Positions 6,934-33,391 of a stretch of 64,000 nucleotides of DNA are shown here, piece by piece. The notes beneath the pieces are model-generated. The model did no database searches. It was not told the origin of the DNA and saw only the letters and a list, made by a program, of their open reading frames with translations. The DNA lies in assembly GCF_002025255.2 (NCBI RefSeq), contig NZ_CP054587.1:2790001-2854000 (forward strand). Reading direction: 5' to 3'. This DNA is from Halolamina sp. CBA1230 (lineage in GTDB: Archaea > Halobacteriota > Halobacteria > Halobacteriales > Haloferacaceae). Position 1 is the first letter of the stretch; each line of letters opens with the position of its first letter. The position numbers and the translations under genes were made by a program.

Positions 6934-7863
6934 ATGAAGCAGTGGGTCCGAGAGCAAGTCGGCCGGGCCTACGAGCGCCTGCTCCGCCGCGAGGGCGAGG
7001 GCGGCCCCTCCCACGTCGCGATCATCCAGGACGGGAACCGCCGCTACGCGAGAGAGCGGGGCGACGACGCCACCGAGGGCCACCGTGCCGGCGCCGAGAC
7101 CACCGAACAGGTGCTCGAGTGGTGTCAGGATCTCGGCGTGAAGGAGCTCACCCTCTACGCGTTCTCGACGGAGAACTTCAAGCGTCCGCCGGCGGAGCGC
7201 GAACAGCTCTACGACCTGCTCGAGGAGAAGCTCACGTCGATCGCCGACAACGACCGCATCCACGAGAACGGGGTGGCGATCCGCGCGATCGGCGAGACCG
7301 ACCGCCTGCCCGAGCGCGTCCGCGAGGCGATCCGCTACGCCGAGAACCGGACCGCCGACTACGACTCGTTCCGGCTCAACGTCGCGCTGGCGTACGGCGG
7401 CCGGAACGAGCTCCTCCGGGCCGCACGCGACGTGCTCGAAGACGTCGACGCCGGCGACCTGGACCCCGCCGACATCGACATCGACCTCGTCGACGACCGG
7501 CTCTACGGCCGGCAGGTCCGCGACGTCGACCTGATCATCCGCACCGGCGGCGACGAGCGCACCTCGAACTTCCTCCCCTGGCACGCCAACGGGAACGAGG
7601 CGGCGGCGTACTTCTGTGCCCCCTACTGGCCGGAGTTCTCGAAGGTCGACTTCCTACGGGGGATCCGCACCTACCAGTCCCGCGAGCGATCCTGGCAGCG
7701 CACCCGCCGGGAGCGCGCGGCCGCCATCGTTCGCGCGGTCGCGGAGACCGAACTCGCCGAGGCGCGGACGGTCGCCGGCCGGCTGCGCGAGAAACTGCCC
7801 GGCGGCGCCGCCCCGGAGATCGACGCCGAACTGGACGGCTCCGCCGGCGAGTCGGCGGACTGA
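6934..7863 (+). CDS. uppS: Cis-prenyltransferase (polyprenyl diphosphate synthase), catalytic subunit type
   Basis: A 309-residue cis-prenyltransferase that extends an allylic diphosphate with isopentenyl diphosphate to make the long polyprenyl (dolichol-type) carrier used for glycan transfer. The catalytic motif IIQDGNRRYARERG is present (D33, G34, N35, R36), as are STENFKRP (E80-N81-F82) and the diphosphate-binding RTGGDERTSNF (R203-F213). The Mg-binding Glu equivalent is probably E222 in NEAAAYF. After that point the sequence departs from bacterial UppS: there is no SELYFTD and no C-terminal RxG motif. Those motifs occur instead in the convergent neighbour at 7975. A box GACTCATAC lies about 25-31 nt upstream. 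Confidence 0.93.
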   Translation: MKQWVREQVGRAYERLLRREGEGGPSHVAIIQDGNRRYARERGDDATEGHRAGAETTEQVLEWCQDLGVKELTLYAFSTENFKRPPAEREQLYDLLEEKLTSIADNDRIHENGVAIRAIGETDRLPERVREAIRYAENRTADYDSFRLNVALAYGGRNELLRAARDVLEDVDAGDLDPADIDIDLVDDRLYGRQVRDVDLIIRTGGDERTSNFLPWHANGNEAAAYFCAPYWPEFSKVDFLRGIRTYQSRERSWQRTRRERAAAIVRAVAETELAEARTVAGRLREKLPGGAAPEIDAELDGSAGESAD

Positions 7864-7866
7864 TCG

Positions 7867-7959
7867 ACTCGGCACGTGGTCAGGCGAGTCGGGCGACGGG
7901 TCTACTCGGCACGTGGTCAGGCGAGTCGGGCGACGGGTCTACTCGGCACGCGGTCAGGC
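7867..7959. repeat. 37-bp tandem repeat between convergent cis-prenyltransferase genes
   Basis: Two identical 37-bp units, each beginning ACTCGGCACGTGGTCAGGCG, lie at 7867-7903 and 7904-7940. A third partial and slightly changed copy occupies 7941-7959. The array fills the whole gap between the uppS stop and the stop of the convergent gene. Confidence 0.9.
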
Positions 7960-7974
7960 AAACCACCCGACTGC

Positions 7975-8583
7975 TCACTCCCCGAAGCGGCGCTGTCGGT
8001 CCTCGAACTCCCGGACTGCACGGAGGTAGTCCCGCTTCCGGAAATCCCGCCAGTTCACGTCGGTGAAGTACAGCTCCGAGTACGTGGACTGCCAGATCAG
8101 GAAGTCCGAGAGCCGTTCGGCACCGGTTTTGATCAGCAGGTCCGGCTCCTCCGGAAACACCAGGTGGTCGGTGACGGTCTCCTCGTCGACGTCCTCGGGA
8201 TCGAGATCGCCGGCGGCGACGTCCTCGGCCATCTCCCGGACCGCGCGGGCGAACTCCCCGCGGCCGCCGAGGCCGACGTTGATCCGGATCGGCGCGTCGG
8301 CGCGTTCGACGTTCTCGGGGCCGCGGACCGCGACCTCGCGGGGCGCGTCCACGTCGCGGAGCTCGCGGACGAGCGTCGGCGCGACCGCCTCGTCGAGCAC
8401 TGACACCGAGACGGTCACGCGCTCGGCGCCGTAGTCGAACGCCCAGGCGAGCGTCCGCGCTAAGGTGTCGTAGGCGCCCTGTTCGAGCAGATCGCGCTCG
8501 GTCAGCACCAGCGCGACGTGGTCGGGGCCGTCGGGGTCGGCGAGGCGGTGGCGGAGGGCGAGGTAGGCGTCGTACGCTCCCAC
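7975..8583 (-). CDS. Cis-prenyltransferase homologue lacking the DGNR catalytic motif (possible accessory subunit)
   Basis: A 202-residue protein starting at GTG 8583. The C-terminal half is clearly cis-prenyltransferase: PDLLIKTGAERLSDFLIWQ (residues 147-165), YSELYFTDVNWRDF (168-181) and the terminal RxG motif R199-F200-G201. The N-terminal motif that holds the catalytic Asp is replaced by HVALVLTERDL (residues 22-32), so no DGNR is present, and the ENFxRP region is also lost. At 202 residues it is about 50 shorter than bacterial UppS. This is the pattern of NgBR/Nus1-type subunits of two-component enzymes. Its gene converges on a complete uppS and is divergent from the DUF92 gene. A degenerate, inactive paralogue is the alternative. 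Confidence 0.88.
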   Translation of the reverse strand: MGAYDAYLALRHRLADPDGPDHVALVLTERDLLEQGAYDTLARTLAWAFDYGAERVTVSVSVLDEAVAPTLVRELRDVDAPREVAVRGPENVERADAPIRINVGLGGRGEFARAVREMAEDVAAGDLDPEDVDEETVTDHLVFPEEPDLLIKTGAERLSDFLIWQSTYSELYFTDVNWRDFRKRDYLRAVREFEDRQRRFGE

Positions 8584-8687
8584 AAGGGACGGTAGCGCTC
8601 GCGTGCTCGAAAACCCTTCGCCGGCCGGTGAGGCCCACGGAACGACGGGGACGTACCGCGACTGGCCCCAGTGTGGTGTCGGGACCG

Positions 8688-8694
8688 TTAAGTA
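8688..8694 (+). promoter_or_regulatory. TATA-like box of the DUF92 gene
   Basis: TTAAGTA sits 23-29 nt before the GTG start at 8717. It supports this start over the upstream in-frame codon at 8603, which lies before the box. Confidence 0.55.
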
Positions 8695-8716
8695 CGCGTC
8701 GCAGGTAGCCGACGAC

Positions 8717-10072
8717 GTGAACCGGAGGCTCAGGCGTGACGCCGGCTTCGCCGCGGTCTCCCTCCTCGCACTCGCGGCGCCGCTGCTCGGCCGGGCGACG
8801 GTGCTGCCGTTCCTCGCCGTCGCCGGCGCCGCGGCCTTCCTGATCGAGGACGGGCCGCTGTTCGATCTGTTCGCCCGTCCGCGCGACCGACAGGCCGGCC
8901 GACTGTACGGGCTCGCGGCGTTCTCGCTGTCGGCGGCCGTGCTCGCCTTCCTCGCGGCGCCGCCGGTCGCCGCGTCGTACACCATGCCGCTGCCCGCCTT
9001 CGCCGCCAGCGTCGTCGCCGTCGGCGTCGGCAACCTCGGCGCGACGGCGGTCCGGGACCGGTTCGACGAGCAGTTCCTCGTCGTCTCGACGTTCACGGTC
9101 GTCGCCTTCCTCGCCGCGCTGCTGGCACAGCTGATCGTCGTCGCGCTGGCGAGCCTGCCGCTGGTCCCGATGGGCGTCGACGCCGGCCTCGCGGCCGCGC
9201 CGACGTTCACGTTCCACGCCGCGATGGCGGCGCTGGTGGCCGCGCTCACGCGCTCGATGCTCTCGCCGGGCGACGCCGGCGCCGTGACGTTCGCCGTCGG
9301 CGCGTCGATGCTCGTCGTCAGCGGGATCGCACCCGCGATCCACGTCCTCGACGTGGGGCTTGCGCTGGGCGTCGCGCTGTTCCTCGGGATCCTCACCTAC
9401 GCCACCGGCACCGCCTCCGTCGAGGGGATGCTCTCTGGCGTGTTGCTCTGTCTGGTCACCATCGGTCTCGGCGGGCCGGGCTGGTTCGTCCTCCTGCTCA
9501 CCTTCTTCGGCGTGGGGACGCTCTCGACCAAGTTCCGCTACGAGGAGAAAGCCGACCGCGGCGTCGCCGAGGAGAACGAGGGCGCCCGCGGGCTGGGCAA
9601 CGTGCTCGGCAACGCCGGCATCGCGCTCCTCGCGGTCGTCGGCTACGCCGCCGCGGGCGACCTCCCGATGGTCGACGCCGACCTGTTCCGTCTCGCGTTC
9701 GCCGGCTCGCTCGCGACGGCGATGGGCGACACGCTCTCCAGTGAGATCGGCGGGCTGTTCGACACGCCGCGGCTGGTCACGACCGGCGAGCGCGTCCCTC
9801 CCGGTACGGACGGCGCGATCACCTGGCAGGGCGAACTCGCGGGCGTCGTCGGCAGCGCGGTCGTCGGCGTGCTGGCGGTGGCGCTGCTCGGCGTCACGCG
9901 CTCGCCCGGGGTCGTGGTCGGCCTCGTCACCGCCGGCGGCCTCGCGGGGATGACCGCCGACAGCGTGCTCGGCGCCACCGTCGAGGGCGACCGCCTCGAG
10001 AACGAGACGGTGAACCTGCTCGCGACGCTTGCGGGCGCGCTGGCGAGCGTGCTGCTCGCCGTTCTGGTGTGA
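8717..10072 (+). CDS. DUF92 (TMEM19/VTE6-like) integral membrane protein, candidate prenyl-phosphate kinase
   Basis: A 451-residue protein with about ten to twelve hydrophobic helices. The signature region near residues 270-300 reads GVGTLSTKFRYEEKADRGVA and continues into GLGNVLGN; later come ATAMGDTLSSEIGGL and GMTADSVLGATVEG with conserved Asp residues. These are the hallmarks of DUF92. The plant member VTE6 is a phytyl-phosphate kinase, so a kinase for a polyprenyl or phytyl-type monophosphate is a reasonable inference for the archaeal protein, and the adjacent cis-prenyltransferase genes support prenyl metabolism. It overlaps the next gene by 3 nt (GTGTGA). Confidence 0.87.
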   Translation: MNRRLRRDAGFAAVSLLALAAPLLGRATVLPFLAVAGAAAFLIEDGPLFDLFARPRDRQAGRLYGLAAFSLSAAVLAFLAAPPVAASYTMPLPAFAASVVAVGVGNLGATAVRDRFDEQFLVVSTFTVVAFLAALLAQLIVVALASLPLVPMGVDAGLAAAPTFTFHAAMAALVAALTRSMLSPGDAGAVTFAVGASMLVVSGIAPAIHVLDVGLALGVALFLGILTYATGTASVEGMLSGVLLCLVTIGLGGPGWFVLLLTFFGVGTLSTKFRYEEKADRGVAEENEGARGLGNVLGNAGIALLAVVGYAAAGDLPMVDADLFRLAFAGSLATAMGDTLSSEIGGLFDTPRLVTTGERVPPGTDGAITWQGELAGVVGSAVVGVLAVALLGVTRSPGVVVGLVTAGGLAGMTADSVLGATVEGDRLENETVNLLATLAGALASVLLAVLV

Positions 10073-32911: not shown

Positions 32912-33391
32912 TCAGCGGGTGAACTCCTCGCGGCGCTGTTCGGTGAGTTTCGCTCCGCTCCCGGAACCTCTCACGACGTACGTGCCCGCCGCCTGATCGA
33001 ACAGCCGCTGGTTCTGGTCGTCGATCGCGATCGCCGCCATACCCACCAGCCAGGTGGGCCACCCGCCGAACAGCGCCGGAACGTTCCGGACGAGCGCCTG
33101 CCCGTACCCGATCTCGCGGCCACTCCTGCCGACGACGCGGATATCCGTCACCATCTTCCCGACGGTCTTACCGTACGCGCCCTCGAGCACGGTCCCGTAC
33201 CCTAGGCCGACCGCGAGAAACCCGAAGAAGACGGTCGCTTCGACCGCGCCGGGGCTGCCGGCAGCTCCGGCACCGGCGAACACGACCACCAGCAGTAGGA
33301 TGAACATCACGACGTAGTCGATCAGCTGGGCGGCGATGCGCGCACCGACGACGTCGACGTCGCCGGGACCGTGGGAGGGCTGTCGCGACAT
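32912..33391 (-). CDS. RDD-family membrane protein
   Basis: A 159-residue protein with the RDD pattern: VGARIAAQLIDYVVMFILLL (Arg and Asp in helix one), a second hydrophobic segment, GKTVGKMVTDIRVVGRSG and YGQALVRNVPALF. Three or four membrane helices are predicted. RDD proteins are poorly characterised; a few affect Na+/H+ exchange. No close functional partner is visible. Confidence 0.85.
   Translation of the reverse strand: MSRQPSHGPGDVDVVGARIAAQLIDYVVMFILLLVVVFAGAGAAGSPGAVEATVFFGFLAVGLGYGTVLEGAYGKTVGKMVTDIRVVGRSGREIGYGQALVRNVPALFGGWPTWLVGMAAIAIDDQNQRLFDQAAGTYVVRGSGSGAKLTEQRREEFTR

Follow-up and report, generated by a model that had tools for sequence, protein, structure and literature searches.

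The locus examined here, part of a 64,000-nt window of the Halolamina sp. CBA1230 genome, raises the question of why two homologues of the cis-prenyltransferase family (PF01255) lie side by side, and whether they represent two enzymes or two parts of one. The genes are convergent (tail-to-tail) neighbours, called here the plus and the minus gene after their strands, and they are the only PF01255 genes retrieved by a profile search of this genome. Both products exceed the curated Pfam cut-off for PF01255 (27 bits), the plus protein over residues 31-253 (242 bits, E 7e-72) and the minus protein with its C-terminal half alone (residues 97-201, 95 bits, E 6e-27), and the two align with each other at 32% identity. 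The view that this locus is a haloarchaeal member of the heteromeric cis-prenyltransferases is well supported, as set out below.

Table 1. Features of the locus, in positions of the window
Feature	Positions	Strand	Details
Plus gene, putative catalytic-type cis-prenyltransferase subunit (DHDDS-like)	6934-7863, including stop	+	309 aa
37-bp tandem repeat	7846-7959		3.1 copies, 92% match (Tandem Repeats Finder)
Minus gene, putative accessory subunit (NgBR-like)	8583-7975	-	202 aa; GTG start at 8583, stop 7975-7977
DUF92 (PF01940) membrane protein	8603-10072	+	PF01940 E 4e-56; divergent from the minus gene, 19-nt gap

The plus protein retains DGNRR (33-37), STENF (78-82, with ENF at 80-82) and the residues R203, R209 and S211, and it has no terminal RxG. 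In the minus protein the catalytic half is gone, the stretch HVALVLTERDL (22-32) placing VLTERDLL where MDGNRR would be expected; YSELYFTD (168-175) and a terminal RRFG (198-201, with RFG at 199-201) are present. Both open reading frames and all motif positions given in the sequence-only reading proved correct when the sequence was re-read.

That reading had suggested an alignment with DHDDS/NgBR and with archaeal pairs as a check, and the residue table compiled from 29 plus and 27 minus proteins together with E. coli UppS, human DHDDS and NUS1 returned the same complementary split at the catalytic and RxG sites. The E. coli residues D26, G27, N28, R30, F70, S71, E73, N74, R77, R194, R200 and S202 are kept in all 29 plus proteins, and R242 and G244, which make up RxG, are missing from the plus proteins and from DHDDS. 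Minus proteins have lost D26-R30, with a VITExDL-like stretch in their place, as well as the F70-R77 segment; they carry a glutamate at the E213 position (27/27), R242 (26/27, the remaining one having lysine) and G244 (27/27), and R242 and G244 are also present in NUS1. At the D26-R30 and RxG sites DHDDS patterns with the plus proteins and NUS1 with the minus proteins. The earlier claim that the plus protein lacks both the SELYFTD segment and RxG stands only in part: a contiguous SELYFTD and RxG are indeed absent, but the loss of the Glu213 equivalent depends on the alignment, because a two-residue insertion adjoins a conserved acidic residue, E222 (in GNEAA), whereas the missing RxG does not depend on it. 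In E. coli UppS a structural Mg2+ is chelated by His199 and Glu213 of different subunits, an arrangement that would fit a contribution in trans.

The same division is found in essentially all relatives, and for this reason it is not attributable to chance. Neither Y[SAT]E[LFI][YFH]F nor an RRxG end occurs in any of 134 distinct plus-type proteins (one of them a fragment), while the 161 minus-type proteins, a set that overlaps the former taxonomically and is not a sample independent of it, include none with DGN[RG], 160 with the YSELYF motif and 161 with an R[RK][FYH]G end. These counts and the residue table bear out the proposal that the minus protein lacks DGNR and ENFxRP and keeps YSELYFTD and RFG. 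A few plus proteins from methanogens carry an R-x-G close to the C-terminus, shifted by one residue (L222, ...RIRAGE; L213, ...RRRSGPKPSCP). Size varies among minus types: two are very reduced, with 163 aa (L256, G300:C1:104888-105187) and 144 aa (L257, G318:C8:1639-1905), and end in RRFG. Those of Halorubrum (L125, L129, L261 and others) frequently exceed 202 aa, reaching about 230 aa, contain a central low-complexity insertion and come from genes unlinked to the plus gene.

The two genes also travel together across genomes. A PF01255 match is present in all 292 Halobacteria genomes sampled, from 77 genera, and at least two matches in 291 of them. The sole exception, G072, has the minus gene alone, and comparison of its DNA with a Halorubrum relative places the plus stretch between contig ends. 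It was dropped as a lone-minus counterexample, its plus locus lying in a contig break (an assembly gap). Around plus genes, 43 of 61 loci contain a linked minus gene, convergent in 42 of the 43, with gaps of at least 6 nt. Among 80 named loci retrieved with the minus profile, 42 contain a linked plus gene, convergent in every case. The minus profile matches 386 of 393 Halobacteriota genomes; because plus-type proteins can also give weak matches to it, scores were used to separate the two types. All five sampled genomes of one family of this phylum (f18; G298, G307, G316, G325, G332) match neither the plus nor the minus profile, and the other two genomes with no minus match (G354 and G491) are 74-76% complete. 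Sampling of 28 non-haloarchaeal families with PF01255 found both types in 26, convergently adjacent in several, the plus type only in one, represented by a genome that is 64% complete (G541), and neither type in f18.

Exceptions to strict pairing exist. Several lineages have an extra plus-type gene with a single minus gene, so that 1:1 pairing is not universal, and the two genes are unlinked in many genomes, for example in Halorubrum. Two full pairs occur in one genome (G194): the first is convergent, and in the second (L086, G194:C39) the genes are co-directional, the minus gene preceding the plus gene. Across Halobacteriota the pair is essentially universal, and in haloarchaea its members are usually convergent neighbours. 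The two-subunit split proposed for Halolamina holds across the 77 genera of haloarchaea and in almost every other Halobacteriota family sampled, as reflected in co-occurrence, convergence, duplication of the pair and joint absence.

Very probably, the plus protein is the catalytic and the minus protein the accessory subunit of one heteromeric cis-prenyltransferase, the latter lending its RxG tail to the active site of the former. The heteromer would extend an allylic diphosphate with isopentenyl diphosphate, leading to a glycosyl carrier lipid of the dolichyl type. The plus subunit would bind the allylic diphosphate and Mg2+ via Asp33 of DGNRR and hold the chain tunnel, and the minus subunit, its own active site lost, would dimerise by its conserved C-terminal half. 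Its R199-F-G201 tail would then enter the plus active site, where it would bind isopentenyl diphosphate and complete the closure of the site, much as the NgBR tail acts on DHDDS. In the human enzyme, the RxG-bearing tail of NgBR reaches into the active site of DHDDS, and its backbone touches the S2 phosphate (PMC7573591). For Halolamina, the complex, the insertion of the tail and the product are all inferred by homology.

Other explanations of the pair can be weighed against the same observations. The plus protein could be a self-sufficient homodimer able to close its site in the absence of RxG, as MM_0014 of Methanosarcina mazei does with TLGG, and the minus protein could have an unrelated role. 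MM_0014 is indeed a homodimer lacking RxG (PMC8131916) and some genomes have more plus than minus genes, but the RxG missing from the plus protein is precisely what the minus protein has kept, the minus protein is essentially never missing where the plus protein is present, and a passage of PMC8131916 reports the M. mazei pair as heteromeric, all of which renders self-sufficiency improbable. Alternatively, the minus protein might bind and stabilise the plus protein while its tail stays outside the active site. The canonical RxG is absent from yeast Nus1 (PMC7573591), and an accessory subunit thus need not use the motif; such a purely stabilising role is nevertheless very improbable for proteins that, very divergent ones of 144-163 aa included, invariably end in R[RK]xG.

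The convergent orientation counts against viewing the pair as one operon, and genes that are not co-transcribed might be expected of independent paralogues forming separate homodimers with different products; an additional stand-alone enzyme does exist in some organisms, M. mazei among them. The minus protein, however, cannot be a conventional synthase, because the catalytic residues of D26-R30 and F70-R77 are lost from it, and the likelihood of two separate homodimers is close to nil.

Similarity searches and structure predictions were also examined with regard to a catalytic plus and an accessory minus subunit. The best PDB sequence match of the plus protein is human DHDDS, part of the DHDDS C-terminal extension included. 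AlphaFold2 predicted the plus monomer with moderate confidence (pLDDT 72, with a low-confidence loop around 207-216) and the minus monomer confidently (pLDDT 83). Human DHDDS chains occupy ranks 1-8 in a Foldseek search of the PDB with the plus model; with the minus model, general UppS-type chains rank first and NgBR is not singled out. The N-terminus of the 202-aa minus sequence, read by eye, has no hydrophobic segment and no visible membrane anchor.

The surroundings of the pair are consistent in one respect. The sequence-only reading had pointed to a DUF92 gene beside the pair, and this association is conserved, the DUF92 gene being the adjacent, divergently oriented neighbour of the minus gene in 37 of 43 and 43 of 80 loci. 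The link with uppS was already described: uppS is the single conserved context of arCOG02245/pfam01940, for which a kinase step in isoprenoid metabolism has been proposed (Makarova et al., PMC5898192); the Haloferax volcanii uppS named in that paper is HVO_2318. The DUF92 protein is predicted to be a prenyl-chain kinase of the same pathway. About 257 residues precede its Pfam domain; a comparable N-terminal region of a DUF92 protein from Methanosarcina barkeri resembles dolichol kinase (PMC5898192). SBDS is not a conserved neighbour in the locus comparison. The 37-bp tandem repeat begins within the final codons of the plus gene, fills most of the gap between the convergent genes and is probably incidental. 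Elsewhere in the window, ARAGORN calls a tRNA-Asp with anticodon atc on the minus strand (32982-33059), an unusual call and one that may be a boundary artefact.

It is tempting, if rather doubtful, to hypothesize that the eukaryotic enzyme was inherited from the archaeal pair, DHDDS from the plus and NgBR from the minus protein, and did not arise by a separate eukaryotic duplication. In a 63-row tree, in which bacteria and eukaryotes are poorly covered and Asgard archaea are not represented, plus proteins form one clade (98/89), minus proteins form one side of a branch (87/74) and DHDDS adjoins the plus clade (93/81); the best tree places NUS1, on a very long branch, with the minus proteins (62/86), and its placement with the plus proteins is not rejected (p 0.377). 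A wide minus profile (A6) matches human NUS1 over its full length (E 1e-11), and a search of the PDB with the profile of the haloarchaeal minus N-terminal half (A3) did not find NUS1; the link to NgBR is weak, because only the wide profile recovers it. The N-terminal half of NUS1, from a human query that is letter for letter PDB 6w2l_B, scores 18.0 bits against the minus N-terminal profile and 6.4 against the plus one, above all 2000 shuffles. DHDDS and the Halolamina plus protein outscore NUS1 on that same minus profile, and the NUS1 score may be regarded as supportive of kinship with the minus proteins, though not specific.

The heteromeric split has already been reported experimentally in one methanogen, and what is added here is breadth; a search of the open-access literature found no paper on a haloarchaeal heteromeric cis-prenyltransferase. 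The analysis gives a putative function to a gene that would otherwise pass for another undecaprenyl diphosphate synthase. It further indicates that two-subunit enzymes are the rule in the phylum to which the genetically tractable haloarchaea belong, so that what the accessory subunit and the RxG tail do can be tested by gene deletion in Haloferax volcanii. The pair also provides models, small and soluble, for a complex involved in human disease, and makes the ancestry of the eukaryotic enzyme a question that can be tested.

Among known systems, the closest counterpart is the M. mazei pair, MM_0618 and MM_1083, described as a heteromeric enzyme in a passage of PMC8131916 that cites Emi 2019; the C45-50 chains it makes are probably destined for a glycosyl carrier lipid. 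One sampled genome, G562, is taken as Methanosarcina because its third PF01255 protein aligns along almost its entire length with MM_0014 (7caq) and the related 7vq9. Its other two PF01255 proteins, L205 of the plus type and L240 of the minus type, fall in the plus and minus clades and are, by elimination, the likely orthologues of MM_0618 and MM_1083; the resemblance to the M. mazei enzyme put forward at the outset is upheld to this extent. Represented by L205 and L240, the M. mazei pair shares its clades, motif split and phylum with the Halolamina pair. It differs in being unlinked in G562, whereas the Halolamina genes are adjacent and convergent; M. mazei additionally has the stand-alone MM_0014, which Halolamina lacks, and the C45-50 product of its pair is a reported one, that of the haloarchaeal pair a predicted one.

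MM_0014-type stand-alone archaeal enzymes belong to the same family and likewise lack RxG, but they end in TLGG, form homodimers, make shorter chains, carry out irregular condensations and occupy a clade distinct from the plus and minus ones. Bacterial homodimeric UppS (E. coli IspU) shares the fold and family, and both of its active-site halves are recognisable; there the catalytic motifs and RxG stand on one chain, whereas in Halolamina they are spread over two. Human DHDDS/NgBR resembles the Halolamina pair in having a catalytic subunit without RxG and with a C-terminal extension, and an accessory subunit that lacks catalytic residues and keeps RxG and the glutamate at the E213 position. 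NgBR, with its N-terminal membrane anchor (PMC7573591), differs in this from the 202-aa minus protein and is only weakly similar to it in sequence.
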